DNA of 44,899 nucleotides, taken from the IMG/VR virus record IMGVR_UViG_3300001680_000196, positions 1 to 44,899 of that record, one strand, 5' to 3'. Numbering within the stretch: position 1 is the stretch's first letter; each line of letters opens with the position of its first letter. Source of the stretch: a virus. This document shows positions 25,084 through 44,899 of this stretch, one piece after another. Below the pieces are notes generated by a model. The model searched no databases, was not told where the DNA came from, and saw only the letters and a program-made list of their open reading frames with translations. The translations under genes and the position numbers were made by a program.

Positions 25084-25098
25084 AACCAGGGAAGAACA

Positions 25099-25743: not shown

Positions 25744-25746
25744 GCA

Positions 25747-26552: not shown

Positions 26553-26569
26553 TAAATATTTCCGTGAAT

Positions 26570-26732: not shown

Positions 26733-26765
26733 AAATTTTATAAACAAACCACAAACGAGACAGCC

Positions 26766-27389: not shown

Positions 27390-27393
27390 CCCC
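27378..27393. terminator. Bidirectional hairpin between convergent genes
   Basis: GGGGCT at 27378-27383 and AGCCCC at 27388-27393 pair perfectly around a four-base loop and overlap the cassette's last stop codon. A second small stem, TGTA/TACA, lies just downstream at about 27405-27418. The symmetry lets it act for both the rightward cassette and the leftward tail tube gene. Confidence 0.5.
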
Positions 27394-27437
27394 TTAGATA
27401 ACTGATGTAGCAAATTACAGCATCTCAGCCCAAGATT

Positions 27438-28076: not shown

Positions 28077-28108
28077 GATCTTCTCCCAAAAAAGATTTCA
28101 TTTCAAAT

Positions 28109-28450: not shown

Positions 28451-28451
28451 A

Positions 28452-28865: not shown

Positions 28866-29359
28866 TATCCCCTTCCCTGACGCTTAATATGCCGTATAAG
28901 AGTCTTTTCAAATACCGAAGCTAGCTTTTGTTGTACGACAGGTTTAGTGGCCTCTCCACGAACCGGATCACGCGCAACCATTATCTTGGTGCCTTCCCAA
29001 ACATACAGCCTTGATTTCGGGATCCCAGAAGTAGGCCCAACCCGACCTTCTAATGTAAGACTGTTAACGTCAAAACCAAGATACTTTAGAAAAACACCCT
29101 TTCTTTTATGAACCATGTGTGGCTCTAAATTTCCGGGTAAAGGAAAGCCTCCAGCCCACTTTGTGGCGTATGGGTGGTTAAGATACCGTAGTCGCATTTC
29201 CGATATATCTGTTCTGGAAGACGCTTCAACCGAATACTGTAGAAGCCTTTTTGTTGTAGCCCTTAGAGCAAGAACAACAGCAAGATTTACACCTCTTTTA
29301 GACTTGCGAAGCTGATCACTTAGCCCCGATACATTTATTCTCAACTCTATCTTCGGCAT
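28865..29359 (-). CDS. HK97 gp10-like tail completion protein
   Basis: This 164-residue basic protein begins I-E-L-R-I-N-V-S-G-L-S-D-Q-L and has a Gly/Pro-rich middle, as in HK97 gp10/lambda gpZ-type proteins that finish the tail-head interface. Its start lies 44 bases inside the end of the glycosyltransferase gene with GAGATAGAAG just before the ATG. It is followed by the tail terminator. Family is inferred from pattern and order. Confidence 0.58.
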   Translation of the reverse strand: MPKIELRINVSGLSDQLRKSKRGVNLAVVLALRATTKRLLQYSVEASSRTDISEMRLRYLNHPYATKWAGGFPLPGNLEPHMVHKRKGVFLKYLGFDVNSLTLEGRVGPTSGIPKSRLYVWEGTKIMVARDPVRGEATKPVVQQKLASVFEKTLIRHIKRQGRG

Positions 29360-32252
29360 CTTCTATCTCAATTGGCTTTACAAAAAACGTACCCTTCTCA
29401 TCTACTTCTATTCTATCATAAGGAAAATCAGGAAGGTCTTGTTCTATCGTCGGTCTGAATTCTCCGGTATCTATGATTGATTGAAGAGGAAATACTGACT
29501 CTAACTTCTCAATAAGTTCAAAACAGACTTTATGAAACGGGTGGCCTGGACCGAGCCTTTCAAATGTATGTTTAAACATCAGATTCGACTTCCTACCAAG
29601 ATGGTAAGCATATTCTTTGTATGGCAAAAAGGCTGTTCCAGCACACATACAGGCTCTTTCATAACAAGTTTCTGCCTTAGCCATTTGACCATCATTCACA
29701 CATTGAAGACCCAAAGCAACCCAAGACCCACAATCCAAGGGATTCTTCTTCAATTCATTGAACAACATTGAATTGTATTTTCCTAACTTGTGTGCCATAT
29801 CTTTTGGTTTCCGCATTAGGCCGGTATTCACAGTGATAAACGGAGCATATTGAACATTGGGGAAAATCCCCATATCCATTAGTCTATTGAAAGCTTTTTC
29901 ATACCCCTCATGCACTGAGCCTTCTACTTTTACAAGCCCAACATCATCCAATTTTACCATTCGTATCGTTTCGCTTCTTGACTCTTTCTTGTCTCCAGCA
30001 TTTGTAGGATTGGTAAATCTAAACATCCATCCCCACACATCGTTAACCTCTGCCATCCGTTTGACAGCAGCAGTGAATGGAGGTTGATCTTGTGGCACAA
30101 TCTCATCAGGGTCCATTGATAGTACCCATCCAATTGTGCCTTTGTTTGTTTGCCTAAAGTGATCTATAGCTGCATTCCTACACGCGCCAAGACCTCCTTC
30201 AATGACAGCAAGCTCTTTATGTATGACCTCCACCCTGAATAACCTCATAAGTTGAGCCAAATTCCATGATGGGCCGGTCTTATACTTTTTGCTCCATTCT
30301 TCTTCTGTAGGCCAAGAAGCATGATTATCATCTTTAGCCCACTCCATATCTTCCTCTTCCCACTTGCCTGTCCATACAAGAGCCAACCTATCGCAGATCC
30401 CGTAAAGCTCTATAAACCATCGTCCAATATGCGGGATTATCTCATCTTCATATGCCAACATGTACGCTGCAATACCGTTCCTTGGATTGTAAACAGAAAC
30501 CGGGACATTCTCTTGCCTGACGATATGACTGTAATTCCCATCCAAGCCCACAAGCTTTGGGTTTTTTTCCTTGTCTAAATCTTGGTAGAATTTAAACTTG
30601 TCGGCTCGATCAACAGAACGAACATGAGATAAATGCCTCATTCTAATGCTTGTGTCGTACCTTTTTACCTTGCTGTGTTCTGGACAGTTTCCGCAATGCA
30701 AACCTATGTCAGTGCCAGCAAATACTTTCTGAGGGAACTTCTTAATAACCCTCCAAATCCTTGGGCCAGCCATTGCAGACGTATAGCCATTTGCAAATGG
30801 ATAATCTGTTCGGATTAGATTTGTGTTCTCCCAATGATTTAGGAATGACACATTACCGCAAGTCTTATCTGGATCTGGGTGGTGGATGGTTCTCCTAAAG
30901 GTATATTTACTAATCCTGTCTTCTGGAACCTCATCGCCATCTACCGAAAAGATATAGTCAGCGTCCATTTCATGCGCTATCTGGTACGATAAATTGCGCT
31001 CATCTCTTTCGTTAAAGTCACCGCCCCAAGGAGCGCAACGAACCTTAAATTCAGGGTTGTTGCTTTTAGCGATTCTTAAAATCCATTCTTCCAGCAGTTT
31101 GGCCCTGGCAGTAGAGTCTTGTTCTTCTTTACAGCTATCGAAAATCGCCTTGTTCTCATCGGATAGAGAGCCATACATTGGATTGTCGTATGAGGACAAT
31201 GCGTCTGCCGGATTATTCGTAAGAACAAAAGATATGCCATCCACAAGCTGAGACACACGAGTAACGCTCATCTCCAATTGTATAAGTTCGTTTATATTCT
31301 TTATAGAAACTCTATATGCAGCAATTACATTCTTTTCACTTTGAGTGTATTCTTCCCACTTGAGCATGTACCGGATTAGATTTTTTGTGCCGTGGTATTG
31401 ACCAGGAAATATCTCTTTAAGGGTTTGATGCATCATGTGACCAATGACAGTATGGAAAGACAAGGAAGAACGCCACCCCATCTCTTGGGCTCTTAGGCAT
31501 AAATCATTGTCTTCATACCCACCAACCGGAAACGAAACATCATCGAAAGGACCATAATACTGGTTTTCAACCCCTGTATTCTGGGCAAGGTCTTCAGCAC
31601 AATCACGCTTCAACATAATACAAAAGCCATAAACTATATTCTGTAGGATGGTTCTATTGCCATGCAACTCCCTCCAATCTGTAGAAAACGCCTGTATGCC
31701 CAATCGAATTATTTCAGACTTCACCCACTCGAAGTCCCTTCCAAATAAACCACTTTCCCCATATGCCCCAGGAGACAGTGGGCCTGTAATGCCAATCTTA
31801 CCGATCTCTTCTACTGGAAATGGGGCCTTTTTTGTTTCTAAGAGAGAGTATGTGTAAACTTCTTTTGTTTCCAAAGAAGAAGCCAAACTCTCCATCCAAC
31901 CGGGCGTTACATGCAGGTCGTCATTCGCAATAGTGATATATTCTGGAATACCGTAGTTCTCTTTCGCGAATTCATACCCTTTGTTTACAGCGGCACCAAA
32001 ACCAATTGGTTCGTCTGACCATACATATTCAATCGTTACGTTTTCCTTGGGACTCAATAATGCTTGTGCGCCAATTAGTCCTTTAAGGGCCTCTATGTTC
32101 TTCTTTGCGTCTTCCATCTTGTGTGGATTTACACTCACTACAAATAATGTATTCGACTCAGAATATTTATAGAAAGCCCCAAATGTTCTCATTAGAGTGC
32201 TTTCTAAGGCCAATGTTGGAATGATAACCAAGTGTTTATATTGGTCTGACAT
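29316..32252 (-). CDS. Large protein with three GT2-like glycosyltransferase regions and TPR-like tail
   Basis: This 978-residue protein is unlike its structural neighbours. Numbering from the longer frame (ATG at 32270), residues ~10-310 form a GT2 domain: I-I-P-T-L start, D-D at 117-118, and G-G-Y-E-D-N-D-L-C-L-R (~250-260), the acidic helix of GT2 enzymes. A second domain (~400-560) has F-S-V-D-G-D-E near 441-447. A third (~600-800) has A-Y-E-D-E-I-I, G-A-C-R-N-A-A and S-M-D-P-D-E near 718-723. Helical TPR-like repeats follow (~830-925). AGGGGC precedes the ATG at 32252, the preferred start. In the head-tail cluster it may glycosylate virion proteins. The fold is clear, the substrate is inference. 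Confidence 0.75.
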   Translation of the reverse strand: MSDQYKHLVIIPTLALESTLMRTFGAFYKYSESNTLFVVSVNPHKMEDAKKNIEALKGLIGAQALLSPKENVTIEYVWSDEPIGFGAAVNKGYEFAKENYGIPEYITIANDDLHVTPGWMESLASSLETKEVYTYSLLETKKAPFPVEEIGKIGITGPLSPGAYGESGLFGRDFEWVKSEIIRLGIQAFSTDWRELHGNRTILQNIVYGFCIMLKRDCAEDLAQNTGVENQYYGPFDDVSFPVGGYEDNDLCLRAQEMGWRSSLSFHTVIGHMMHQTLKEIFPGQYHGTKNLIRYMLKWEEYTQSEKNVIAAYRVSIKNINELIQLEMSVTRVSQLVDGISFVLTNNPADALSSYDNPMYGSLSDENKAIFDSCKEEQDSTARAKLLEEWILRIAKSNNPEFKVRCAPWGGDFNERDERNLSYQIAHEMDADYIFSVDGDEVPEDRISKYTFRRTIHHPDPDKTCGNVSFLNHWENTNLIRTDYPFANGYTSAMAGPRIWRVIKKFPQKVFAGTDIGLHCGNCPEHSKVKRYDTSIRMRHLSHVRSVDRADKFKFYQDLDKEKNPKLVGLDGNYSHIVRQENVPVSVYNPRNGIAAYMLAYEDEIIPHIGRWFIELYGICDRLALVWTGKWEEEDMEWAKDDNHASWPTEEEWSKKYKTGPSWNLAQLMRLFRVEVIHKELAVIEGGLGACRNAAIDHFRQTNKGTIGWVLSMDPDEIVPQDQPPFTAAVKRMAEVNDVWGWMFRFTNPTNAGDKKESRSETIRMVKLDDVGLVKVEGSVHEGYEKAFNRLMDMGIFPNVQYAPFITVNTGLMRKPKDMAHKLGKYNSMLFNELKKNPLDCGSWVALGLQCVNDGQMAKAETCYERACMCAGTAFLPYKEYAYHLGRKSNLMFKHTFERLGPGHPFHKVCFELIEKLESVFPLQSIIDTGEFRPTIEQDLPDFPYDRIEVDEKGTFFVKPIEIEDAEDRVENKCIGAK

Positions 32253-32330
32253 ATTTGCCCCTGGCGTCATGCGCTGTTTTAAGGTTCGATAATAACTTAA
32301 TATGTATAATGTATAAGCACAAAAAAGTAA

Positions 32331-32645
32331 TTATGAAGTCTTGCGTAATCTTCTGTTTTCTTTTTCTAATGATTCTATACGTGCCTTGAAAATAGCCAAT
32401 TGTTCTTTCAGGTCCACCAATTGTTCTTGAAGCCTCATTCTGTCTTCATAAATGCCTGTAATTTCACCACGAAGCCTCTGTATTTCTTCTCGCAAGTCAT
32501 CTCTGTAAACCAATATCTCCGTGCGCTCTATGTCGATTTGTCTCTGTTTCAATCTAAGGCTATCTTTCCAAAAATCCCACGCCTTATTAGATCCAAGTGC
32601 TGCAACACAAGCCAATGCGACGGTTAAAATAGATTCGTTCTCCAT
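32331..32645 (-). CDS. Small membrane-anchored coiled-coil protein
   Basis: This 104-residue protein has a short hydrophobic stretch near the N-terminus (residues ~5-18) followed by a long charged helix with coiled-coil heptads to the end (E-I-Q-R-L-R-G-E-I ... E-S-L-E-K-E-N-R-R-L-R). I take the ATG at 32645, seven bases after the previous stop. An ATG at 32699 would overlap that gene by 47 bases. It pairs with the next upstream gene, which has the same design, and may form a complex with it. Function unknown. Confidence 0.5.
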   Translation of the reverse strand: MENESILTVALACVAALGSNKAWDFWKDSLRLKQRQIDIERTEILVYRDDLREEIQRLRGEITGIYEDRMRLQEQLVDLKEQLAIFKARIESLEKENRRLRKTS

Positions 32646-32652
32646 TTCTCTA

Positions 32653-33129
32653 TCACGTATTAGTGAGTGCCTGTTTTGCAAGATTGCGTAATCGTTCATT
32701 CTCTTTCATCTCGTTCATTATTGATAAACACTGCTCAACCTTTTTTGTCGTGCCGTCCAATTCTTCTTTAATAGATGAAGATACCTTCGATATATCCACA
32801 ACAGCACTTATACTCTCAGACTGAGACAACGACATAATCTCCACATTATTGTCCACCCCGTCTATTCTTGTTCCTATAGCCCTTATTTCAGTTGATATAT
32901 TCGATCTTAAATCCAAACTATCTTTATTTAGCCCTTCAATCACCTCGTCATATCGGTTCCGCATGTCGGTAACGTCTTCTTTATACTCCTTTCTAATCTC
33001 AACCAATTGCTTCTGAAAACTCTCAACCAATAAATCCATCCTCTTTTGCATAGAGGTATACAACCAGATTAAAAAAGCCGCAAAGACACCAAGCGAGCCG
33101 TGGTCTAATAGTAAATCCATTATTTCCAT
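32653..33129 (-). CDS. Membrane-anchored coiled-coil protein
   Basis: This 158-residue protein has one membrane segment at about 12-26 (L-G-V-F-A-A-F-L-I-W-L-Y) and then an almost continuous helical region rich in Lys, Glu and Asp. The topology suggests an anchored rod, with the rod on either side of the membrane. The paired gene downstream has the same plan. Possible roles include a spanin-like pair or an inner-membrane partner of assembly, but I recognise no family. It has its own candidate promoter. Confidence 0.5.
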   Translation of the reverse strand: MEIMDLLLDHGSLGVFAAFLIWLYTSMQKRMDLLVESFQKQLVEIRKEYKEDVTDMRNRYDEVIEGLNKDSLDLRSNISTEIRAIGTRIDGVDNNVEIMSLSQSESISAVVDISKVSSSIKEELDGTTKKVEQCLSIMNEMKENERLRNLAKQALTNT

Positions 33130-33150
33130 ACGATACCCACAAACAAATAA

Positions 33151-33159
33151 ATTATACCA
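33151..33159 (-). promoter_or_regulatory. Extended -10 promoter for the membrane pair
   Basis: The minus strand reads TG-G-TATAAT at 33159-33151, a consensus extended -10 about 22 bases before the ATG at 33129. It could drive the coiled-coil pair and the glycosyltransferase separately from the head operon. Confidence 0.4.
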
Positions 33160-33161
33160 GC

Positions 33162-33194
33162 TTATCTATAGTGGGATTAGCCACATATAGATAA
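33162..33194 (-). terminator. Long hairpin after the head-closure-like gene
   Basis: TTATCTATA-GTGG (33162-33174) pairs with CCAC-A-TATAGATAA (33181-33194) with one bulged base and a six-base loop. No U-run follows on the minus strand. It may end or process the upstream transcript just before the extended -10 promoter. Confidence 0.4.
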
Positions 33195-33195
33195 A

Positions 33196-33813
33196 TTATC
33201 TCATCTCCATAATAATTCGCCAGTAGTTTTCGTACCCAACAGAGTATTGAATGTACTGAACACCAAGCACGAAATACTTTTCATTTGTGTCTGCATCAAC
33301 AATAAAATCTGATACGGCTGGAGTAAAAGATTCATCATAAGCCATAAAAATAAGGGGTTTCTCCGTCTGGAAAGAGCCAAAAGAGTCAACCCGATAGTCT
33401 TGTGTGCTTATAGAATTACCAAGGGGCCGGTTTATAAAACAAGGCCAACCAGAAACAACAGCATATTCGCTACTTGCAGAGCCACCGCCCTTTCCAAAAT
33501 ACTTCACTTCAATAGTAGATCCGGACGATACAAGCGTTGCATCACAAGCAATACTGGTGACAGTATCAAAGTCTTTTACTGTAATGCCAAGAGAGGAAGA
33601 AGAAAAGGATATGGTGTCCGTTATACCAGACAAATTCTTGGTCCCGTTAACAGTTAGAACCCCTGTAGAGGCTTGATTTAGTTTGACCTGTACCACAGAG
33701 GAATTGCTTGGATTCCTTGTCACCGAAATAGAAGAGGCAGCAGCCTGAACATCAAAAAGAAGCTGAGTTTGACGGGTAATATCTACCCTGTTTCTCAATA
33801 CACTCATCATCAT
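33196..33813 (-). CDS. Head closure-like protein
   Basis: This 205-residue beta-rich protein starts at the ATG at 33813, with GGAGG six bases upstream. The TTG at 33825 lies within that ribosome site. The C-terminal part (F-I-V-D-A-D-T-N-E-K-Y-F-V-L-G-V-Q) resembles the barrel of head-closure/stopper proteins, where a D-x-x-G-x-x-Y-x-V pattern recurs. The first 110 residues form an additional Ser/Thr-rich beta region. Position after the connector genes and before tail completion fits. The family is not certain. Confidence 0.45.
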   Translation of the reverse strand: MMMSVLRNRVDITRQTQLLFDVQAAASSISVTRNPSNSSVVQVKLNQASTGVLTVNGTKNLSGITDTISFSSSSLGITVKDFDTVTSIACDATLVSSGSTIEVKYFGKGGGSASSEYAVVSGWPCFINRPLGNSISTQDYRVDSFGSFQTEKPLIFMAYDESFTPAVSDFIVDADTNEKYFVLGVQYIQYSVGYENYWRIIMEMR

Positions 33814-33831
33814 GGCAACCTCCAATCATAG

Positions 33832-34590
33832 TCATCTACCAAATACTATAACTTCAGGAGATTTAGTTATCCTTCTCCTTTTGCGAGTTCTTGATGCGCC
33901 ATAAGCAATTTGCGCTTCATTGGCGTTGGGTATCTTTTCCGGCTTTTGTGGCTTTACCTCTTCCAACTGCACGATAGTTGGCTTTCTCTTGTTATTTACA
34001 TCTACAACGATACGACGCTTAGTCCCTGCTCTTTTAACGCTTACACCAAGCTCGCCAATTAGATATTCAGCCAAAGAAGAAGAGATATTTGAAGCAGTAG
34101 AGTCTGTTAACTGACCGTCAGTAAAGCGAATTTGAGTCTCTACTTTATCTATAAGATTGTTTTGTAAAACAACATCCAATGACCGCTGTAAAAAACACAA
34201 ATTATCATAGACTTGCTTTTTCATGCGCTTTTCACACGATGGATATACAAGTATTGTCTCCAACCCCATAAATTCCGAGCATCTAACAACGGTATCTATA
34301 AACCGTGACGCCCAAAGTCGGTCCACACCGCACAATATCTCGTTCAAACCAGAGCAAATAACACAGTATGTCTTATCAAACTGCTTAGAAAAATGCTCTA
34401 TCTGGCTCATGCAAGACATAAGCCGAGAATATATACTCTTCAAATCCTTGCAGTGAACCACATAAACATACGGCTCTATGCTTCCGTCTGTCTTCTCCGC
34501 TATGGTGTTCACAATCTCATGGTCAATCGGCACAGCGTTTCTTGGGAAAGACCCATATCTGTCTGATACATATACAATACCTATTTTCAT
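33832..34590 (-). CDS. Degenerate SGNH-hydrolase-like protein
   Basis: This 252-residue protein has an N-terminal strand I-G-I-V-Y-V-S-D-R-Y-G-S where SGNH hydrolases have G-D-S, then V-I-C-S-G-L-N-E-I-L resembling the G-x-N-D block, and F-T-D-G-Q-L-T-D like the final D-x-x-H block but without the His. The catalytic set is therefore incomplete. The C-terminal 70 residues are very basic (T-R-K-R-R-R-I-T-K). I start it at the ATG at 34590, which overlaps the stop of an upstream frame (ATGA). A GTG at 34602 is also in frame. A binding rather than catalytic role is possible. Confidence 0.4.
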   Translation of the reverse strand: MKIGIVYVSDRYGSFPRNAVPIDHEIVNTIAEKTDGSIEPYVYVVHCKDLKSIYSRLMSCMSQIEHFSKQFDKTYCVICSGLNEILCGVDRLWASRFIDTVVRCSEFMGLETILVYPSCEKRMKKQVYDNLCFLQRSLDVVLQNNLIDKVETQIRFTDGQLTDSTASNISSSLAEYLIGELGVSVKRAGTKRRIVVDVNNKRKPTIVQLEEVKPQKPEKIPNANEAQIAYGASRTRKRRRITKSPEVIVFGR

Positions 34591-34724
34591 TTTAGTAACC
34601 ACACCTGATTTTCGAGTTTAAGATACCAATCTATTGTTTCTTTGGGCAATAGTTCTTCTGGATGCCCACCAAACTTATACCAAGAGCATATCGGAAGGTA
34701 TGCCCAGACCTGGACAAGTAGTTG
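34587..34724 (-). pseudogene. Coding-like frame without a start codon
   Basis: Between the basic-tail protein and the SGNH-like gene, one frame runs from an in-frame TAG (34725-34727) to a TGA at 34589-34587 that overlaps the next ATG (ATGA). It reads as protein, rich in Trp/Tyr and ending W-Y-L-K-L-E-N-Q-V-W-L-L-K, but has no ATG or GTG near its beginning. It is probably the remnant of a coupled gene or needs a rare start. Confidence 0.3.
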
Positions 34725-34774
34725 CTACTGGATAGTACACCATACTAACTCAAAAGAGGTAATGTGTAAAAAGA

Positions 34775-35113
34775 CTATCTGTTTGAATGGCTTTTCTTCG
34801 TATAAGAACTTTTAGTAGACAGCTTTTTGTTGGCTACTTTCTTAGCTGCTGCTTTTATCGTTGCCTGTGACGGTGTTGCAGTCGGTGTTGCCTTTACCAT
34901 TGTTCGTGGAGGCGTCTTCTTAACGGCAGTTGTTGGCCTGACAGGGGTATACTCTTTGAACTTTAAACGTCTGGTAACGAACGTGTAGACATTAACGTCA
35001 TCAGTAGAGCATACCAAAAATCCATTATCAATAGTGCATTGTATCACTACGCCCATAGGAAGTATCCATTGGGTTCTACCACCATGGTATCTCTTTTTAA
35101 GATGATAAGTCAT
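34775..35113 (-). CDS. Small protein with basic, Thr/Lys-rich tail
   Basis: This 112-residue protein starts one base after the head-tail connector stop. The first ~55 residues form a small beta domain (I-Q-C-T-I-D-N-G-F-L-V-C). From about 58 onward it is a low-complexity Pro/Thr/Lys tail rich in A-T-P, A-A-K-K and S-Y-T-K-K, likely flexible and positively charged. Such tails can bind DNA or the capsid. No family recognised. Confidence 0.5.
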   Translation of the reverse strand: MTYHLKKRYHGGRTQWILPMGVVIQCTIDNGFLVCSTDDVNVYTFVTRRLKFKEYTPVRPTTAVKKTPPRTMVKATPTATPSQATIKAAAKKVANKKLSTKSSYTKKSHSNR

Positions 35114-35114
35114 T

Positions 35115-35696
35115 CTATCCACCCAATCCTCTAGCGAATACTCGCCTATGTTTATTTAAAATGCGTTGCGCTATTAAAGGTATGGTGCTTCCGGTGGCCC
35201 CGTCAAATTTCACCATGTAATCCCCAATCCTTTGCTCCTTAATACCCGCAGAAGACTGTTGATTGAAGAGACTTGTCGCTATTAGATTGCCAGCATAAAT
35301 AACATCTTCTGGAACCGAAGAAAAACCAGCGGTGTAATCCACTTCTACAATACCGCGACCAGTTGAAAAGAGAGCGGAAAGGGGCTTCAACTTTATTATG
35401 CCAAGACCTGAATCAAGCTCATATCCAGTAGCCGACATTAGCGAACCAGAGATTGTTAGAGCGGTAATGGATGCAACAGGTCTGTACGTCAAGGCCACCT
35501 CGCTCATTCCACCCGCAGTTACATCTATCTTTTCAGAATAAGCAATCACACCAGAAGAAGTTAAGCCCAATTCATCCAACACCATCTGTTCCACAGCACC
35601 CTGCAAATCTTCTATGGCAGCATCATTCCTTGTGACGACAGTTGGTATCCCCATCATGCGTTTAATGCGGTCTTTATCGGTGAAGACGTATGGCAT
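35115..35696 (-). CDS. Head-tail connector (gp6-like adaptor)
   Basis: This 193-residue protein has an N-terminal helix pair, a central strand region (R-P-V-A-S-I-T-A-L-T-I-S-G) followed by D-Y-T-A-G-F near 129-134, and C-terminal helices. This is the usual layout of HK97 gp6/SPP1 gp15-type adaptors that bind the portal and start the tail interface. It comes after the capsid and AT-hook-like genes. Good fit by pattern and order. Confidence 0.7.
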   Translation of the reverse strand: MPYVFTDKDRIKRMMGIPTVVTRNDAAIEDLQGAVEQMVLDELGLTSSGVIAYSEKIDVTAGGMSEVALTYRPVASITALTISGSLMSATGYELDSGLGIIKLKPLSALFSTGRGIVEVDYTAGFSSVPEDVIYAGNLIATSLFNQQSSAGIKEQRIGDYMVKFDGATGSTIPLIAQRILNKHRRVFARGLGG

Positions 35697-35702
35697 TATT
35701 CA

Positions 35703-35999
35703 TTAGTCCTTTGTTTGACTTTTCCGTGGTCTTCCTGGCTTTCTCTTATTCAAGATTGACCTGAAAACGTCTTTCGTCGCTTCTGTCCATCCTAATTTAG
35801 ACGCCCTTTCTACAGCGGATTTATTTTTAAGAAAGATTGTTGCTGCCATTACCCCATCAACACTGATTGGTTGGCTGTGACAACTATCTGTATAACAATA
35901 AAACGACTGACCAACCTGTGGGTCAATGTCATACCTTCGCATCGCAAACTTGAAATTGTCTTTAAGGAACTTTGGGTCCGTGCCGAGTGCAGTCGTCAT
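35703..35999 (-). CDS. Small protein with AT-hook-like C-terminus
   Basis: This 98-residue protein ends K-R-K-P-G-R-P-R-K-S near residues 83-92, containing the G-R-P core of AT-hook DNA-binding motifs between basic residues. The first 80 residues are mixed, with several aromatic residues and a Cys at 34 and 40. AGAGGTGA precedes the ATG. It directly follows the capsid gene's terminator, where decoration or connector genes usually lie. It may bind DNA inside the head, which is inference. Confidence 0.55.
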   Translation of the reverse strand: MTTALGTDPKFLKDNFKFAMRRYDIDPQVGQSFYCYTDSCHSQPISVDGVMAATIFLKNKSAVERASKLGWTEATKDVFRSILNKRKPGRPRKSQTKD

Positions 36000-36035
36000 T
36001 TATTCACCTCTGTAATTATTTTACACTGTATCAAA

Positions 36036-36064
36036 TAAAAAAGGGGGCCGCAAATGCAGCCCCC
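36036..36064 (-). terminator. Strong terminator after the capsid gene
   Basis: On the minus strand GGGGGC (from 36064) pairs with GCCCCC (to 36043) over at least six G-C pairs, with an inner TGC/GCA pair, and is followed by TTTTTTAT (36042-36035). This is a textbook Rho-independent terminator. It should keep capsid mRNA abundant while lowering expression of the connector and tail genes. Confidence 0.85.
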
Positions 36065-36100
36065 CAACATAGTGTTCCGATTATCTGAAACTTAGGTTGA

Positions 36101-37099
36101 TTACAAGACGTTCGTAAGCATAGAAGCACCGAATGTATTTGAGATGCAAAGAGCCCCATCCCAAAACATATCGAACTTATCAAACTGACTGTCAGTCTTA
36201 GCCAATGGCATAACTGTCATTGGGGTAAGCTCACTTATATAGGCGTATCTCTTGTTAAGGACCAAGATAGACGTTCCAGTTCCACTAGTATAAGACTGAA
36301 TGAGGGCACCAGCAGGGTTCAGTGCAATGGTATCTGGAATTGCAGTAGAGCCAACAATAGGAATTCCATCATAAGTTCTTACACGAAATCCAGCAGCAAT
36401 TTCAGTCTCGTTAACAAACTGTTGTGTCGCTTGAAGAGCCCCATTGATAGATCGAAGTCCTTTAAGCGACCCACAAATCACCAAGTCACTACGCCTACCA
36501 GAACCCTTGACAGCATCAATAGCTCTATCCAAGTTCGAGAGGTTTAGAGCAGCAGGTGTAGCGCCAGTGTTATTGTTGATCAATTGGGCACCTTGGATCT
36601 GTGTCATAAATCCATTGATTGCCTGGGTGGTATCTATGTTGGCAGAGGCAGCAGCATTTCCTTGACCCAGAACCAGCGCTTTTTCCATGGCGTTAGCAAA
36701 ATCTTCTGCCTTCATTGCCATTTCAAGAGCCAAAATATCGGTATAGCTCCGACCAGTGGCTTGAATTTTGCGGGTAACGTTACCTTGTGTGACCAACGTT
36801 TTATAGTCGAAGTTAATTTGAGCGTATTCACCAACTTCATCATAGGTGCTAGAAGCAGTAGTGTCCAAGACCCACGCCCCACCAGATTGTCCGGCAGTTC
36901 GTTGATTGATATACTCTGCATTACCAGTGCCACGACGACGATCAAGAACAGCCTGAAGGCCGAACTCGCGAAGCGTTAGCTGCTGAACAGTGCGGTTAAT
37001 AAATTTCTGAAGGAGTGTTGTTCCGTCAGAACTAACTGTAATTTGAGTCGCCCGTTCAAATGCTTGACGGGTTGCCTCAGTAGGTGACCATTGTGACAT
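36101..37099 (-). CDS. Major capsid protein, HK97 fold
   Basis: This 332-residue protein lies between the prohead protease and a strong terminator, the usual place of the capsid gene. It has a helical N-terminus, a long E-loop-like strand region with Y-A-Q-I-N-F-D-Y-K-T-L near 91-101, the spine-like helix A-L-E-M-A-M-K-A-E-D-F-A-N-A-M-E-K-A-L, and I-V-G-S-T-A-I-P near the P-domain, all typical of HK97-fold proteins. AGGGGAA precedes the ATG. No separate long N-terminal scaffold is present; the protease gene probably supplies it. Confidence 0.83.
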   Translation of the reverse strand: MSQWSPTEATRQAFERATQITVSSDGTTLLQKFINRTVQQLTLREFGLQAVLDRRRGTGNAEYINQRTAGQSGGAWVLDTTASSTYDEVGEYAQINFDYKTLVTQGNVTRKIQATGRSYTDILALEMAMKAEDFANAMEKALVLGQGNAAASANIDTTQAINGFMTQIQGAQLINNNTGATPAALNLSNLDRAIDAVKGSGRRSDLVICGSLKGLRSINGALQATQQFVNETEIAAGFRVRTYDGIPIVGSTAIPDTIALNPAGALIQSYTSGTGTSILVLNKRYAYISELTPMTVMPLAKTDSQFDKFDMFWDGALCISNTFGASMLTNVL

Positions 37100-37109
37100 T
37101 GTATTCCCC

Positions 37110-38927
37110 TTAGTTCCAGCTCATTTGTTTAGTAGATAGCAAACCGTCAGCTTCTGCGGAACGAAGTCCAGCACCGAGTAGGTCTACAAGTTTTGAGTGC
37201 GATACTTGCTTTTCTCCAAGCAACTGTTCAACGTTCTCTTCGATTACAGTAGCCAGAGCCGTGCTACCACTTTTCCGAGCAGCGTCAATACTGCGGCTAA
37301 ATTCATGCCGAGCCAGAGGGCCAGAGCCAATATGTCGAGAATGAATTCCAGTGCGTACTGGTTCCGACATAAGCTTTGTTATCATTCCTTCCGCTTTTGA
37401 AAGCCGATCACGCAACATAGTTACATCTTCGGGTTCTTTGATTTCAGTTTTCTCAGGCTCACTTGGGGCCTCTGTCGATGCAGATGCCTTTGGTAGAGCT
37501 TCAAGAACTGATCGAGTAACGATTTCAGCAATCGCCTTCATTTCATTTTCAGTCATGTCTTCTCCATGTCTGGTTCTGCTATCGACATTTTCATTCTCAG
37601 CAGAAGATTTAGTGTTTGGGTTATTTTCCGTATCGGAAATTGATTTAAGTTCTGGTGCGTCCTTGCCAAATTTTTCATAGTATTTAACAAGGTGGGCGTG
37701 TGCTTTTGGTTTCTCGTTGTCGGGCATATCTACACCGCCCCTGGCTCCATTTAAAGCAGCCATAGCCGCAACGACACCACGAAATACAACCCTAAGTTCC
37801 CCATTTATCATTCTGGCAAATGGAAGTTTATAGGCTGACTTGGAGTCCTGTGCTTTCTCCGGATCTAAATAAAGATGGGCTCTCTTATAACGGTCCCAAT
37901 TATCCAACCCTTTCCCCAAGACCTCATCTTGCGCTGTAGTGTTCCAATCCCACGGAACATCTTCCGCAGCGAGTGGCAAATCAGCAAACCCCGTAATCGT
38001 TCTCTCTTCGGTGCTGGCTTCTACTGACTTCTCTTCCTTAGACACTTTAAGAGTGGCATATTCTTCTTCAAGAAGATCAAACGCTTTTTTCAGCTTTGCA
38101 TGTTCTTCTTTCAAGCTGTAATATTCGTTGTCTTCTTCATCTTTTGCTCTCTCGATGACCTCGACAACTTCCTCTGTCTTATCAAGAACAGTTGTTTCTA
38201 CAGTTTTAGGCATAACCTCATCATCCCCCGTGTTGTTTTTGATAGCTTGATCAATAATACTACGTATTGACATATTAGCCAATCCACTACTGTCGGGATT
38301 TGCAGGGGCTCTTGTAATTGCAACATGGTCAAGGGTTACATCTTGGATAATAATGCGCTCTATCTCGCCACCTTCATTTTCCAAGACCGTTATATCTTCA
38401 AACCAACCACCAATAGACTGACCAATTGGCTCGCCACGATCAAGGCGTTTTACTAATTCCTTAGAACGCTTGTCATCTGCGTACAATTGGGAACGAACAA
38501 CTAAAACAAAGTTATCGCTTCCTTTTCCCTTTTTAACTGCCTCGGCCCTAATCTCTGCATCTATTGTGCGTCCAATTACCTCATCCCATTCCGCTATTCC
38601 TCCAGACGCAAAACTATTGTGTCTCGGAAGGATTGGGATACCCGCTTTAATTTGGTTACACATATTATTTAGGGCACCAATTGACATTTCAGTTCCATAA
38701 TGGTCAACAGAAGTGCTACTTGCTATGCCTTCGATAGCGTAAACCGTACCAACATTGCCGACATTACCAACGTCTATCTCGGAATCTGCGAATGAATTAA
38801 GTTGTTTTATATGATAGTTCGTCCTAAATCTTCCTTTAAGTCTATGAACGGTTCCCCCGTTCACATCTGTCTTAGAAGATTGACAAACAAAACCGTCAAA
38901 CGCCTCTTCATTTTTGTTCTTTTTCAT
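37110..38927 (-). CDS. Prohead protease fused to scaffold-like regions
   Basis: This 605-residue protein has an S78-type protease domain at residues ~60-225, with His103 in P-R-H-N-S and Ser171 in G-Q-S-I-G-G-W-F, followed by D-H-V-A-I-T-R-A-P-A-N-P, typical of HK97-type proheads. A charged coiled-coil (~245-305) follows, then a compact domain (~312-427) with W-D-R-Y-K-R-A-H-L-Y and A-L-N-G-A-R-G-G-V-D, seen in some prohead proteases. A second coiled-coil/acidic scaffold region runs to the C-terminus. Scaffold and protease thus lie in one gene. AAGG lies about eight bases before the ATG. Protease identity is firm, domain roles are inference. Confidence 0.8.
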   Translation of the reverse strand: MKKNKNEEAFDGFVCQSSKTDVNGGTVHRLKGRFRTNYHIKQLNSFADSEIDVGNVGNVGTVYAIEGIASSTSVDHYGTEMSIGALNNMCNQIKAGIPILPRHNSFASGGIAEWDEVIGRTIDAEIRAEAVKKGKGSDNFVLVVRSQLYADDKRSKELVKRLDRGEPIGQSIGGWFEDITVLENEGGEIERIIIQDVTLDHVAITRAPANPDSSGLANMSIRSIIDQAIKNNTGDDEVMPKTVETTVLDKTEEVVEVIERAKDEEDNEYYSLKEEHAKLKKAFDLLEEEYATLKVSKEEKSVEASTEERTITGFADLPLAAEDVPWDWNTTAQDEVLGKGLDNWDRYKRAHLYLDPEKAQDSKSAYKLPFARMINGELRVVFRGVVAAMAALNGARGGVDMPDNEKPKAHAHLVKYYEKFGKDAPELKSISDTENNPNTKSSAENENVDSRTRHGEDMTENEMKAIAEIVTRSVLEALPKASASTEAPSEPEKTEIKEPEDVTMLRDRLSKAEGMITKLMSEPVRTGIHSRHIGSGPLARHEFSRSIDAARKSGSTALATVIEENVEQLLGEKQVSHSKLVDLLGAGLRSAEADGLLSTKQMSWN

Positions 38928-38959
38928 ACAGATACCTTACAGCAAAACCCATACATATG

Positions 38960-38986
38960 TTTATACCAAACACCCTGAATCGTCAA
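38960..38986 (-). promoter_or_regulatory. Leftward late promoter before the protease gene
   Basis: The minus strand has TTGACG (38986-38981), a 15-base spacer and TATAAA (38965-38960), about 33 bases before the protease ATG. The spacer is short, but both boxes are close to consensus. It should drive the head-tail operon. Confidence 0.5.
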
Positions 38987-39099
38987 AACCGTACATTAAC
39001 CCAAACAATATGTAGCAAAACACTAACATTAGAAATGTCTATAGCATATTATTATTTTAAGTGTAAAAGCTAACGCAACATCTTGTTAAAGGCGCGATA

Positions 39100-40608
39100 A
39101 TGAAATTTGTCACAGAATCCCTAAGTATAACTAAGAAAATTGACACCGTACAGCCGGGCTCTTGGTCTTCTAGCAACTATATAGCAAGAAAACGAAAGGG
39201 CCTTCACTTCAATAATGAAGTATTCTCTCAAACGTCCATCCCATCTATGGGTGGCTCGTATACCCGTTCAAATGAACGGGTACTGTCCGATGAAGAGCTA
39301 TGGACCGTTTACTTGAAGTGTAGCGACGTTCGCGCAAGCGTTGACTCCATAGTTCGTAGGGTTGCCACGTTCGATTGGATGGTTTTACCTAACATTTCCC
39401 CACAAGATGAACGGTATGAGGGATTATTGAAGGTTTGCGATCAGGTGACACGCTTTTTACAACAGCCGAACAAAAATGGGGACACGTGGCAAGAAGTGAT
39501 GACCGCACTTTTAACCGATACATTGGTTATGGATGCCGGGGTGCTTGAATTAGCATACGGGAAGAATGGCGTTCTTCAAGAATTGGTTCCATTAAGAGGA
39601 TCAACCATCTTTCCACAAGTAGATGAGTTTGGCAGAATCAAAGAATACTCCCAAAATATATACCAAGATGGCATGTACGGAACAATAAGAGAGTCAACTT
39701 CTCCACAAGATTTTCCTACATTCAAGCCTAACCAAATAATGTTTCTTAGTTTGTTCAAGAATACAGCGGAACCACGCGGAAACCCCATTATAGAATCAAT
39801 AATCAACGAAGTAATAGCTATGTTGAGAGCGAATGAACACGCAATGATAAGTCTGGATGCAGACGAGATACCGCCAGGGATACTTGTGCTAGCTGGTATT
39901 GCGGGTCGCGCTGCCGAAGAAGCACGTGCTGATATGCAAAGATTGAAGGGTCAGGACCATAAGATAAGAGTTATGACCACACCAGATCCCACAGGGATAG
40001 GCGCGAAATGGATTGAACTCAAACGAACCCCTAAAGATGTCTCTATGATTGAGATTATCGACCAGATTAGGCGAGCTATCTACAGGGCTTTTGGAGTTAT
40101 GCCCGTAGAAATGGGTATGACTGAATCTATACCACGAGCTACCGCTGTTGTTCAGATGGACGTTGCCTCGTCGCACTTGGTTACTCCAATCTTAGAGCTG
40201 CTACAAGGGAAAATAAATGGGCAAATTCTTACATCTCTTGTACAAAATACAGAGATAACGAACTTAATAGAGTTTAAATTCGACAGAGAAAAAAGACTTA
40301 CTCCAGAAGACCAAAGGAACTTGGCTACAACGCATCAACTATACGTTAAAAGCGGTGTTATGACGCGAAATGAAGTTAGAGAAACACTAGGACTCAAGCC
40401 GGTATTAGGCGCAGACAAACTAACACATGAATATACCGGGAATATAGCAACTATTACTGCCGATACGGAAGATGTGTATGATGATACTGTAAGCGATGAG
40501 CAACTAAAAGATGACGAATCTTCGGCTGATGAAAAGATAGGGCTCGAAGAGCAAGAAGACATAGAAGTTTTTGAAACCGAAAAAGAAATAGAGAAAAAAG
40601 AAGAATGA
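39100..40608 (+). CDS. Portal protein
   Basis: This 502-residue protein forms the dodecameric ring at the head vertex. It shows an HK97-type portal pattern: S-D-V-R-A-S-V-D-S-I near 83-92, E-P-R-G-N-P-I-I-E near 225, P-P-G-I-L-V-L near 257, and a long helix with D-Q-I-R-R-A-I-Y-R-A-F-G-V. The last 60 residues are very acidic. AAAGG lies eight bases before the ATG. Its stop overlaps the terminase start by four bases (ATGA). The rightward direction, opposite to the protease and capsid genes, is unusual. Confidence 0.85.
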   Translation: MKFVTESLSITKKIDTVQPGSWSSSNYIARKRKGLHFNNEVFSQTSIPSMGGSYTRSNERVLSDEELWTVYLKCSDVRASVDSIVRRVATFDWMVLPNISPQDERYEGLLKVCDQVTRFLQQPNKNGDTWQEVMTALLTDTLVMDAGVLELAYGKNGVLQELVPLRGSTIFPQVDEFGRIKEYSQNIYQDGMYGTIRESTSPQDFPTFKPNQIMFLSLFKNTAEPRGNPIIESIINEVIAMLRANEHAMISLDADEIPPGILVLAGIAGRAAEEARADMQRLKGQDHKIRVMTTPDPTGIGAKWIELKRTPKDVSMIEIIDQIRRAIYRAFGVMPVEMGMTESIPRATAVVQMDVASSHLVTPILELLQGKINGQILTSLVQNTEITNLIEFKFDREKRLTPEDQRNLATTHQLYVKSGVMTRNEVRETLGLKPVLGADKLTHEYTGNIATITADTEDVYDDTVSDEQLKDDESSADEKIGLEEQEDIEVFETEKEIEKKEE

Positions 40609-42260
40609 TTGACAACTACCACAGTAGTTTAGCAAACGTAATCGACAAATATCCGGTTATAGGCCAAGCCATGCTACACCACAGGAATACCCGTGGTTTG
40701 CCTATGTCGTTTAGGGATATGCCATACCTGGCTCCACTGTATGCCGAGATACCAAATCTACAGGGGGCAGACATAAGGAAAGCAGTACAAACAGGGCTTT
40801 CCGAACTCTTTATAATCCTCGCCCTCAACCATGCTGGGTGGGAAGGTAAAATTGTTGCCTATATTCTCCCAACATTCTCTGTTAGAGACAGATTTGTAAA
40901 GCAACGGATAAACAAAATACTAAGCGGTTCTTCAAAGTATCGTTCAATGCTTCCAAAGGAAACAGACCTTGGGAACAACCGAATGAAAAGATTTGGCAGT
41001 GGCTCCCTTTTGTTCCTGGGCTCAAATACTACAGGTGATTTTGTCGAATTCTCAGCAGATACTATGATAGTAGACGAGATAGACCAGTGCGAACAAGCGA
41101 ATCTATCAAAGGCAAAGGACCGAATCAGGGCCTCTAAAGACCCACGAATGTATAGACTCGGAAACCCAACGCTGCCAAACAGAGGAATCTGTGAACTATT
41201 CGATAAAAGTGACCAATCTCATTGGTTTACAAAGTGTCCAAAGTGCAATCATTGGCAGACACTTCAATGGGACGTAAATATCGTACAGAAAAACGATGAC
41301 GGTCTATGGATACCAAGAGACAAAGAAGCCATTGATGCCTTACGATGGACAAAAGTAGAAAGTTATAAGGGCAAAATAGAACCCGTCTGCTCTAAATGCC
41401 ACGGACTTTTCCCAAGACAAACGGAAGGTCAGTGGGTACAAGTGTATCCGACAAGAGATAGGCGCGGCTATACCCTTTCAAGATTGGATATATTGTCGCA
41501 AAACCTAACAAATCTATACCAAGAGTGGATAGCTGCTCAGTCAGACATAAACAAACTATCGACGTTTTATACATCTGTGCTTGGCACTGGCTTTGAACAT
41601 AGCGGAGCAAGGATCTCATCGGAGATGCTTGGCAATTGCTGTGAAACTTACACATTAGACTACGGTGGTGGGCCAGAATATAAAAAAGAAATTGTTAGCA
41701 TAGGTATAGATGTTGGAACACTGCTTAACGTTGTCGTTTCTATCGCAGTGAAGAATGAGGAGGGAGAAGTTCGACGCAAAACTGTTCTGGTTTGTACTGT
41801 GCGGAAGTTTGGAGAGCTAAAAGACATAATTACACGCTACAACGTAGACTCTGTAGTTATAGACGCAATGCCAGAGATAAGAAAATCACAAGAACTCAGA
41901 GATTGGGGCAGACTAAAAGGGCTAAACATCTGGTTGTGCCGGTTCTATCCCACACAACGAGTAGGCGAACAGGCTTATGGAATGAAGCTGAATTGGCGAG
42001 AAAGGGTCATAACGGTAGACCGAACACAGATAATGGACGCCACTTTCGATGAGATAAGAGACAAAAAGCACCAATTTCCAAGCGACGTTTTTAGCGTCTT
42101 GGGATTTCTTGATCAAATGAAAGCCCCTGTTAGAGTGGTAAATCCAGAAAAGGGCCGAATTGTGTGGAACGAGGGCTCTGCTGCCGACCACTATAGACTT
42201 GCAGATTGCTATGATCGGGTAGCTTTTGATATGTCTACCATGACAGGAAGTTTCGGGTAG
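40605..42260 (+). CDS. Terminase large subunit, GpA family
   Basis: This 551-residue protein is the ATP-driven packaging motor and nuclease. It has a lambda-gpA-type deviant Walker A at about 59-67 (K-A-V-Q-T-G-L-S-E, Lys at the start), a Walker B M-I-V-D-E-I-D at 154-160, a zinc finger C211-x2-C214 with C262-x2-C265, and RNase H-like nuclease aspartates at D369 (I-G-I-D-V-G), D420 (V-I-D-A-M-P-E) and D528/D534. It is translationally coupled to the portal gene. No small terminase gene is recognised beside it. Confidence 0.92.
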   Translation: MIDNYHSSLANVIDKYPVIGQAMLHHRNTRGLPMSFRDMPYLAPLYAEIPNLQGADIRKAVQTGLSELFIILALNHAGWEGKIVAYILPTFSVRDRFVKQRINKILSGSSKYRSMLPKETDLGNNRMKRFGSGSLLFLGSNTTGDFVEFSADTMIVDEIDQCEQANLSKAKDRIRASKDPRMYRLGNPTLPNRGICELFDKSDQSHWFTKCPKCNHWQTLQWDVNIVQKNDDGLWIPRDKEAIDALRWTKVESYKGKIEPVCSKCHGLFPRQTEGQWVQVYPTRDRRGYTLSRLDILSQNLTNLYQEWIAAQSDINKLSTFYTSVLGTGFEHSGARISSEMLGNCCETYTLDYGGGPEYKKEIVSIGIDVGTLLNVVVSIAVKNEEGEVRRKTVLVCTVRKFGELKDIITRYNVDSVVIDAMPEIRKSQELRDWGRLKGLNIWLCRFYPTQRVGEQAYGMKLNWRERVITVDRTQIMDATFDEIRDKKHQFPSDVFSVLGFLDQMKAPVRVVNPEKGRIVWNEGSAADHYRLADCYDRVAFDMSTMTGSFG

Positions 42261-42532: not shown

Positions 42533-43073
42533 CTATCGCTTCGCCACCAACGAACAACTGCATCAAGGTCTTCGGAATGTTTCCATCCGTATGCTCCAAC
42601 TTTATGCACGTTATCTCGCCAAACAAACGACGATCATTCTCGTTGTCTACATCTATCTCTGACTTTTGAAGATAGGCGTCCCCAGCCTCGCTAACCGTAT
42701 ACGAACACAAATACTCCTTCAACAAATGATCAAAGGCACTTCCCTTTAACGGCCCATGCTCCATAGCCCACGCCATCGCGGCCTTACCATACCAATCATC
42801 ACTCTCACTGCAATCCAATATGTAAGTCTCGCAAATGAAAAAACAACCCACCGGATGAACACCATCACGAACCATCTTAGACGATATGCCGCGAACTATC
42901 GAAGGCCACTTCGTCTTCTCCATCGCAAAATGATACGCAACCAAATCACCACTATCCGACACCACATACAACATAGGAGGGCACGAACCACCATCGCAAT
43001 ACGACAAACCACTACCCAACTCTATAACGTTACGCAATACACGCGAAGATAACGCCACTACACTATTTATCAT
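42525..43073 (-). CDS. Hypothetical protein
   Basis: This 182-residue protein starts at the ATG at 43073, with GGAGGGAG five bases upstream. A longer frame to 43097 is possible. The sequence is mixed alpha/beta with several cysteines (C-D-G-G-S-C-P-P near 26-33, and C-F-F-I-C). The codons are rich in G and T, unlike the early genes. No family is recognised. It shares an operon with the zinc-type protein upstream and the DUF2061-like gene downstream. Confidence 0.58.
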   Translation of the reverse strand: MINSVVALSSRVLRNVIELGSGLSYCDGGSCPPMLYVVSDSGDLVAYHFAMEKTKWPSIVRGISSKMVRDGVHPVGCFFICETYILDCSESDDWYGKAAMAWAMEHGPLKGSAFDHLLKEYLCSYTVSEAGDAYLQKSEIDVDNENDRRLFGEITCIKLEHTDGNIPKTLMQLFVGGEAIDE

Positions 43074-43452
43074 CTTGCTCCCTCCATAACGTACCACCTC
43101 GTGTCTTCGTCATCACCTCTCCTACAGCTCCACCACTACCGGCACTACCACCAACCCCACCCACAACCGAACCCGGCAACGGGGCGCTGCTACCATCACG
43201 AAGAAATACACCCACCCGACCATTCCGCATCCTACGTCGAACATAACGCTGCTCGCTAACTCCCGAACGCTCCAACCTCTCCAATACTCCCAAACATCGC
43301 TTGCAATCACAATCATCCTTCGCAAACACCATGTAATGAGCCTCATTCGGCATCCAAACTCCACAAGCAGTCCGGTAATGCTCCATACGATAACCATTAC
43401 CATCTCGATATATCTCGCGGCTTTCACCAAATGTGTAATGTACCTTGCTCAT
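43063..43452 (-). CDS. Hypothetical protein with D-C-D-C-K-R-C cluster and Gly-rich tail
   Basis: This 129-residue protein starts at the ATG at 43452 with GGGGGA upstream. The first half has His/Tyr-rich segments, a Cys and C-D-C-K-R-C near residues 48-53 that could bind metal. A Gly/Ser/Val-rich linker (G-S-V-V-G-G-V-G-G-S-A-G-S-G-G) follows near residues 95-110. It is the first gene of a three-gene leftward group beginning at the edge of the repeat region. Function unknown. Confidence 0.55.
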   Translation of the reverse strand: MSKVHYTFGESREIYRDGNGYRMEHYRTACGVWMPNEAHYMVFAKDDCDCKRCLGVLERLERSGVSEQRYVRRRMRNGRVGVFLRDGSSAPLPGSVVGGVGGSAGSGGAVGEVMTKTRGGTLWREQDDK

Positions 43453-43470
43453 AAGATAATCCCCCAACCC

Positions 43471-43498
43471 ATATTAACACGTTATCCAGTAAGTGTAA
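43471..43498 (-). promoter_or_regulatory. Possible leftward promoter
   Basis: The minus strand has TAATAT at 43476-43471, about 20 bases before the ATG at 43452. TTACAC lies 16 bases upstream (43498-43493) but is far from the -35 consensus. A leftward promoter is expected here for the three-gene group. Confidence 0.3.
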
Positions 43499-43516
43499 CT
43501 CGATCTGTAATTTTAG

Positions 43517-43550
43517 AAAAAATATCCGGGGGGAAGGCTGGCTGGCCCCC
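43517..43550 (-). terminator. Terminator-like hairpin in the leader of the leftward genes
   Basis: On the minus strand GGGGG (43550-43546) can pair with CCCCC (about 43532-43528) around a 12-base loop. Six T follow after a five-base gap (43522-43517). It would stop transcripts entering from the repeat region or act as an attenuator. Confidence 0.4.
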
Positions 43551-43627
43551 AAAAGCTAACATTTTGAGTCCGCTTTTCTTGACGTTCAATGATGTTAGTG
43601 CCAAGGCTCACAAATTCACGCGGTTTG

Positions 43628-43650
43628 AACCGGTCATGCCATGTCCGGTT
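43628..43650. repeat. 23-bp palindrome
   Basis: AACCGG at 43628-43633 and CCGGTT at 43645-43650 flank an inner CAT/ATG pair (43635-43637 and 43641-43643), with a single T-T mismatch between. It looks like a dimeric protein-binding site. Confidence 0.6.
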
Positions 43651-43687
43651 TATTTTGTGGTCTGTTAGCACCCCTTCGAGCCGACCT

Positions 43688-43827
43688 GGTTCGCAGTGCA
43701 TCGAATAGCCCCATTTTCGGACACTGTACAAGTGTTCAAAATTGGCGTCTAAGCTACCCCGCAAACCCCAATTCTAACGCCCAAAGTATTGACACTGCAA
43801 TGGGGGCTATTCGATGTACTGCGAGCC
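43688..43827. repeat. Inverted repeat pair A (TCGAATAGCCCC element)
   Basis: The 25-base element at 43688-43712 recurs in inverse orientation at 43803-43827 with 23 of 25 bases equal. Its core TCGAATAGCCCC occurs a third time, inverse (GGGGCTATTCGA), at 43954-43965. The pair is interleaved with pair B. Confidence 0.75.
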
Positions 43828-43850
43828 TGTTTTGAACAGATGTACAGTGT
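43721..43850. repeat. Inverted repeat pair B (ACACTGTACA-NN-TGTTCAAAA)
   Basis: The 21-base element at 43721-43741 recurs in inverse orientation at 43830-43850 with 19 of 21 bases equal; only the two central bases differ. Order along the DNA is A, B, inverse A, inverse B, so the pairs are interleaved, not nested. Confidence 0.75.
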
Positions 43851-43874
43851 TTTCATGGGGTAATTTGCGCCCTC

Positions 43875-43896
43875 TAACCTACCGTACCGTAGGTTA
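43875..43896. repeat. 8-bp inverted repeat TAACCTAC/GTAGGTTA
   Basis: The two perfect eight-base arms flank CGTACC. Copies of GGTAATTTG lie on either side at 43859-43867 and 43924-43932. It belongs to the same repeat-dense control region. Confidence 0.6.
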
Positions 43897-43940
43897 TGAA
43901 ACGAGCTAACCCCTACCGAATATGGTAATTTGGGTGTGGA

Positions 43941-43990
43941 TAGTTCCAATTAAGGGGCTATTCGAACCATAAGGGATCCAAGTGGAACTA
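43941..43990. repeat. Inverted repeat enclosing the third A core
   Basis: TAGTTCCA (43941-43948) and TGGAACTA (43983-43990) are perfect inverses and enclose GGGGCTATTCGA at 43954-43965. The structure lies about 55 bases before the rightward gene at 44044 and could be its operator. Confidence 0.55.
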
Positions 43991-44043
43991 CGAAGTTAGT
44001 AAAGCTATCATCGCCACTTGACCCGCAAACCAGAGAAGACACA

Positions 44044-44899
44044 ATGAAAACCAAAACAACCCAAAAGGTAACCACCAAAACCGAAAAGGTAGTTACCGCC
44101 CCGAAAGCAGTTAACCAAACTGCTACCACCGACAACGCAACCCCCGACGCTACCACCGTCGCCAAGGGTAGCGACACCGCCACAACCGACGCTACCACCG
44201 TCAATGATGACGCTACCACCGTCAATGAGACACAACGTACCCAACCCCTCACCCTTGAAGACGTTAACACCGTTCGACTTGAGAGCAACCTCAACCCTTG
44301 CGCTCAACACCTTGCGGGGTTGCTCCGAAAGATGATCCCCCAACCCACCCACGTTGACGCCTATCTCATTGAGCGCCTTCTCAATGGTAGCGTTCCTGAT
44401 TCCGAATGGATCGAAGGGCAATACTCCTTCCTCATGGGGATGGATGTCGATATCCTTGACGAGCAAGGAGAATGGACAGGAGAGACTGTATTCCAGAAGC
44501 TACGGGTTTACTTCCCCGCTTGTACCGTCGCGACACTTGACAAGTTGTTTATCCAATCGACCCATAATAAGAAGAATGCTAAGACGGGAAAGGTTGACAC
44601 CGTTAAACGGAATGGCGCGTTAGCGCGTGTTTTGATCGCGCGTAACAAGGATCTGACGGTGGAAAGTACTAAGGTAGGGAACAAGACCCACAAGTACATC
44701 AAGTATCTCCCTGAGTTCACCATTGACGATCTCCGTGGCGCTAAGGTGTCACGCCTTGACGCTACCCTCAAGATCCTACTTGGTACGCTGTTCACTTGTG
44801 ATGTTCGTACAACGGGTGATCTGTTCGACACTGTTAGCACTGACGGGGACTTCACTATTCTAAAGAATGGTGATCTTACCGTCGTAACAGTTCGGAAAG
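44044..44899 (+). CDS. Incomplete hypothetical protein with repeated D-A-T-T-V linker
   Basis: An ATG at 44044 opens a frame with no stop up to the window end, giving at least 285 residues. Residues ~1-65 are a Thr/Asp/Ala-rich linker with three copies of D-A-T-T-V encoded by an identical 15-base repeat. The rest is folded-looking, helical then strand-rich (V-F-Q-K-L-R-V-Y-F-P-A-C near 154-165). Codons end mostly in C or G (ACC, GAC, GTC), unlike the A/T-ending codons of other genes, suggesting a different origin or strong expression. The ribosome site is weak. It lies beside the repeat region, so a protein acting on it is possible. No family recognised. Confidence 0.68.
   Translation, partial: MKTKTTQKVTTKTEKVVTAPKAVNQTATTDNATPDATTVAKGSDTATTDATTVNDDATTVNETQRTQPLTLEDVNTVRLESNLNPCAQHLAGLLRKMIPQPTHVDAYLIERLLNGSVPDSEWIEGQYSFLMGMDVDILDEQGEWTGETVFQKLRVYFPACTVATLDKLFIQSTHNKKNAKTGKVDTVKRNGALARVLIARNKDLTVESTKVGNKTHKYIKYLPEFTIDDLRGAKVSRLDATLKILLGTLFTCDVRTTGDLFDTVSTDGDFTILKNGDLTVVTVRK
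44146..44223. repeat. Three copies of GACGCTACCACCGTC
   Basis: Identical 15-base units begin at 44146, 44188 and 44209. The last two lie in adjacent 21-base repeats. They encode D-A-T-T-V in the linker of the incomplete rightward gene, and the exact identity suggests recent duplication. Confidence 0.75.

Follow-up and report, generated by a model that had tools for sequence, protein, structure and literature searches.

Which function is served by two long inverted repeats that are interleaved in a gene-free spacer of a viral genome? The locus lies in IMG/VR record IMGVR_UViG_3300001680_000196, whose full 44,899 nt were analysed here (hereafter the window) and which overlaps two further records of the same virus, G001 (79,172 bp) and L034 (6.3 kb). 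We read the repeat region as a probable protein-binding switch of early genes rather than as a folded RNA. It belongs to an uncultivated tailed virus, probably with an archaeal host, that encodes a terminase, a portal, and an SU10-type capsid protein. The sole named relative of the latter in the phage collection is the haloarchaeal virus HSTV-1 (28% over 172 aa, E 1e-4). However, the primase/helicase is of bacterial type and the terminase, whose large-subunit gene (40605-42260, + strand; PHROG 675, E 2e-75) lies upstream of the repeats, is nearest to those of bacteriophages, so our assignment to an archaeal host is a lean rather than a secure result. Elsewhere in the same virus (L136, i.e. G001 19801-39800), a C5-cytosine methyltransferase gene is located at 3848-4720 on the + strand, and a separate minus-strand run (about 5251-11163) contains a second DNA methyltransferase match and genes for ADDT/aGPT-Pplase-like, arginine-deiminase-like, Tet/JBP oxygenase, and ParB-like proteins. 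Judging from this gene set (3848-11163), the virus probably carries hypermodified cytosine.

Repeat architecture and strain variation

The spacer (43453-44043) holds no credible gene and separates two divergent genes of unknown family. To its left lies a gene for a protein of 129 aa (43063-43452, - strand; low-confidence model), and to its right the first gene of a rightward early operon (44044-44899, + strand), with a full length of 403 aa in L034. Structure predictions for both flanking proteins were poor (pLDDT 45 and 39). Inverted pairs in the spacer were scored ungapped (+1/-2) against 1000 dinucleotide shuffles of the same interval, counting non-overlapping pairs. The interleaved A-B-A'-B' arrangement described in the earlier note is real: the A/A' pair (43688-43712 and 43803-43827; 25 nt, 92% complementary) scored 19 and the B/B' pair (43721-43746 and 43825-43850; 26 nt, 85% complementary) scored 15, while the best shuffle reached 13, so both are far beyond chance. 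Within the 21 nt originally given for B/B' there are two differences, which are adjacent to each other.

The same cannot be said of the smaller features. With A and B masked, the best leftover pair scored 8 compared to a shuffle mean of 8.7; such a score is ordinary, and neither the two palindromes formerly listed as notable nor the frame of the third A core are individually significant. The palindromes AACCGGtCATGcCATGtCCGGTT (43628-43650) and TAACCTACcGTACcGTAGGTTA (43875-43896) adjoin the leftward and rightward AT-rich boxes, respectively. The third A core GGGGCTATTCGA (43954-43965, + strand) is indeed an exact match, covering only the first 8-12 bases of A, but its enclosing inverted repeat (TAGTTCCA/TGGAACTA) is not above chance, and the core is confined to one allele, being present in two of the four sequenced copies (window and left end of G001) and absent from L034 and the right end of G001.

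Element B has a second reading besides that of an inverted pair, which in itself is genuine. B (43721-43741, - strand) contains an operator-like dyad, ACACT-N5-AGTGT, at 43721-43735, the sole perfect instance in the window, and B' (43830-43850, + strand) is the same operator with one half degenerate. As B is an imperfect dyad, it can equally be regarded as a repeated operator, of which one copy sits behind A and the other between A' and the rightward box.

All copies of the region are identical at 43600-43896 and diverge right after the second palindrome, with the left end of G001 covering only A' onward. As the three records are identical across A-B-A'-B', conservation within the species is uninformative. 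The first early gene (window 43897-44899; L123, L124, L034) occurs as two alleles that are 77% identical, with leader/gene mosaics between records. The start of G001 falls within A' and its end in the other allele, a pattern that would fit a genome that is circular or permuted and present in two strains, or a tandem copy. Structured repeats (TTAGCTCC...GCTAGCTTCGAGCC...GGCTCGAAGG) are located downstream of the first early gene and are alike in both alleles (L135:1800-2100; L124:11400-11689). No tRNA or tmRNA was found for the region, and a near-whole match to a named phage proved to be merely a 23-nt chance match.

Distribution of element A among viruses

Rather than being absent or randomly placed in other viruses, A was present and mostly clustered after the terminase gene. 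A scan of IMG/VR with CTANNCGATNNACTGCGAGCCT (18 fixed bases) returned 16 loci, of which 14 are of the magrovirus type and the other two are records of the window virus itself; A' matches this pattern exactly, and outside this virus all exact matches in the scan come from magrovirus-type contigs. The exact 17-base pattern was found at 13 loci, most of them with one homologous terminase (51-77% identical). A scan with the 14-base core was discarded because it mostly gave chance matches, though it had yielded the first relative. The A-bearing group encodes a family-B DNA polymerase, an RFC-like clamp loader, an ERCC4 nuclease, a DNA glycosylase, and a PD-(D/E)XK nuclease, and the best-covering matches of its polymerase are haloarchaeal viruses. 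Much of the published gene set of magroviruses, viruses of Poseidoniales, is found in this group (PMC10160649). As no named magrovirus turned up in the collections, the name as used here rests on gene content.

Conservation within the group is pronounced. In 88 magrovirus-type loci (998 kb, a few overlapping records included), motif A was found at 112 sites with up to two mismatches and at 283 sites with up to four, while the reversed-pattern controls gave 0 and 2 sites, respectively. Because A itself was the query that revealed the relatives, the number of lineages is a biased count, whereas conservation inside the group is free of this bias. The consensus CTAAACGATGGACTGCGAGCCTGTT ends in four letters (TGTT) that lie outside the searched columns, yet are conserved, and A' matches this extension. 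In the dozen loci mapped, the sites are mostly on one strand, in a gap of 1.3-1.7 kb just past the terminase gene. Arrays reach up to 13 copies. In further members there are one or two sites, and no site with up to three mismatches was found in about half of the loci. In L158 (2410-4089) and related loci this gap is nearly ORF-free, rich in ACTGC/GCAGT words, and dense in degenerate A copies, and it sometimes runs into an open frame (L143).

A weight matrix trained on magrovirus-type viruses only, with 100 simulated windows as null, gave 34.8 bits for A' (43803-43827, + strand; motif register 43807-43831, CTATTCGATGTACTGCGAGCCTGTT) and 27.0 bits for the inverted A (43688-43712, - strand; register 43684-43708, CTATTCGATGCACTGCGAACCAGGT). 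The next site in the window reached 3.7 bits and the null maximum was 14.4. Both copies thus score well over background, and they share the setting of the element A family, a non-coding gap near the terminase gene and upstream of an early operon. In addition, a half-site (CTATTCGATAG) precedes a different early gene of this virus by about 50 bases (L135:4906).

In spite of the shared motif, the two virus groups seem unrelated. No shared proteins were detected by BLAST between ORFs of G001 or the window and the magrovirus-type loci (E 1e-3), and a classification of the window virus as a magrovirus was rejected since BLAST revealed no homologous terminase, portal, capsid, or family-B polymerase; the terminases of the two groups are not alike (E about 0.3). 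A precise DNA motif common to viruses without detectable shared proteins is rare. The B dyad appears to be private to the window virus, with no perfect copy in the magrovirus loci and just single-mismatch matches in L146. We found no report of motif A in the magrovirus literature searched. One strict A pattern searched in 84,980 prokaryote genomes (GTDB contigs) gave only single matches in Idiomarina and Novosphingobium, a yield close to chance as estimated from the length of the pattern and the size of the collection, and no conclusion was drawn from them.

Candidate promoters and competing functions

In magroviruses and in a third lineage, a TATA box often lies about 15-42 bp downstream of A. 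In five magrovirus-type viruses the box is a clear ATATAC, located 21, 21, 30, 32, and 42 bp past A, distances that fit helical turns (Rayleigh p 0.005, for n=5 and a test picked after seeing the data), and in the third lineage (L154, L157, L159) A lies 15 and 26 bp before TATATAAAG boxes. The latter loci also have repeated promoters (CTATATAAAGAACCAATAAAG), and inverted repeats (GGGTTTAGG...CCTAAACCC) adjoin their A copies. In the window, A and A' face outwards to AT-rich boxes that are weak TATA matches: AAAATAAA (43650-43657, - strand), 31-38 bases past A, is a candidate leftward TATA box, and TAATTT (43861-43866, + strand), 33-38 bases past A', a weak candidate for a rightward one. A similar box of the CACAAAATAA type (AAAATAA) is found about 28-37 bases past A in L161 and L263. 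Past A and the AAAATAAGG box, these two loci have a conserved, GC-rich stretch of non-coding appearance (L161:2460-2560; L263 near 3686) that is possibly a small RNA. On the other hand, a TATA box so spaced is missing from most A copies in the dense arrays of magroviruses, and the motif in L146 lies between convergent genes, which is ill-suited to a promoter site. A bacterial sigma-70 promoter was rejected (one -35/-10 hexamer match found vs 1.3 expected), and terminators in the region were at or below chance level.

The conservation of A elsewhere and its frequent position upstream of TATA boxes support two of the earlier suggestions, repeated protein-binding sites and a regulatory switch, here at a divergent promoter. 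We therefore favour, with moderate confidence, a divergent control region for the leftward gene at 43452 and the rightward early operon at 44044, in which two protein-binding sites, the shared A and the virus-specific B, are each present twice. A would be bound by a factor available to otherwise unrelated viruses, most simply a transcription factor of an archaeal host that they have in common, possibly Poseidoniales. Since each A copy points outwards to a TATA-like box about 31 bp away, the pair might drive or gate two divergent promoters, and the B dyad would probably be bound by a virus-specific repressor or activator that chooses which promoter fires. More tentatively, A might be a lineage-crossing viral signal, a 25-bp site that unrelated viruses infecting the same marine archaea have independently retained so as to capture a single DNA-binding protein of the host; we hold this idea at somewhat less than even odds. 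The captured protein may be an activator, a replication factor, or a silencer.

The usual site of the motif past the terminase gene and, in magroviruses, its arrays of up to 13 copies are compatible with a role in replication or packaging. A replication origin, with A (and B) as iterons for an initiator and divergent early transcription as incidental, is in our judgement rather unlikely. Three to 13 A copies occupy the ORF-poor 1.3-1.7 kb gap of the magrovirus type, most of them pointing the same way and some at intervals of 28-31 bp, and there is one main A cluster per genome. But many viruses of the group have just one or two copies, and the loci devoid of sites within three mismatches make up about half; moreover, the composition skew of L184 does not change abruptly at the cluster, and no initiator gene is common to the two virus groups. 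Less probable still is a packaging (pac) site read by the terminase. The motif usually lies about 0.1-3 kb from the end of the terminase large-subunit gene in both virus groups, yet terminases as dissimilar as these (BLAST E about 0.3) would be reading a nearly identical motif, and in L147 it precedes the terminase gene by 3 kb. Most contigs continue straight through the cluster, which argues against a fixed genome end, and the sole contig end at A', that of G001, falls in a stretch that varies between strains.

Site-specific recombination, also raised in the earlier note, is very improbable as a function of the region. A cassette-exchange site would agree with strains that are identical to 43896 and diverge right past the palindrome, and with the two alleles (77% identical) and mosaics of the downstream gene. 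However, none of the examined genes next to the region encodes a recombinase, the mosaics are explained by assembly from mixed strains, and A is not at the starting point of divergence. We give the least credence, and very little of it, to an RNA element in which an A-A' hairpin alternates with B-B' pairing as a pseudoknot or attenuator: the + strand does fold far better than shuffles (z -6.7) and both A/A' differences are G-U compatible on this strand, but A is single or a direct repeat without a pairing partner in other viruses, so what is conserved is unlikely to be pairing, the adjacent differences in B/B' are non-pairing, the minus strand folds less well, no Rfam family matched, stems of 25 and 21 bp lying next to each other, with links of 8 and 2 nt, would make an unusual pseudoknot, and the identity of all copies over A-B-A'-B' offers no covariation to read.

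Comparison with known control regions

If A is indeed shared through a common host factor, it could identify the hosts of orphan viruses as well as an unknown archaeal regulator. It would serve as a sequence tag for tying orphan marine virus genomes to archaeal hosts and as bait for a transcription or replication factor, the first such factor used by viruses that infect uncultivated archaea of the Poseidoniales type. Moreover, A marks a single region per genome, the probable start of early transcription or replication.

Among known systems, magroviruses (order Magrovirales; viruses of Poseidoniales/Marine Group II) have element A (CTAWWCGATRNACTGCGAGCCTGTT) in common with the window virus, usually between the terminase gene and an early operon with a MoxR-type ATPase. 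They differ in their polymerase and helicase equipment, the absence of B, and the frequent arrays. The magrovirus arrays resemble those of iteron origins, while the window has only two full A copies, in opposite orientations and 115 bp apart. Divergent control regions with repeated operators are known from phages and archaeal viruses, e.g. the lambda-type OR/OL regions. As in the window, such regions have divergent genes on either side of two groups of repeated sites, and the sites of one group are dyads, but the window differs in its interleaved order A-B-A'-B' and in one site that is common to unrelated viral lineages.
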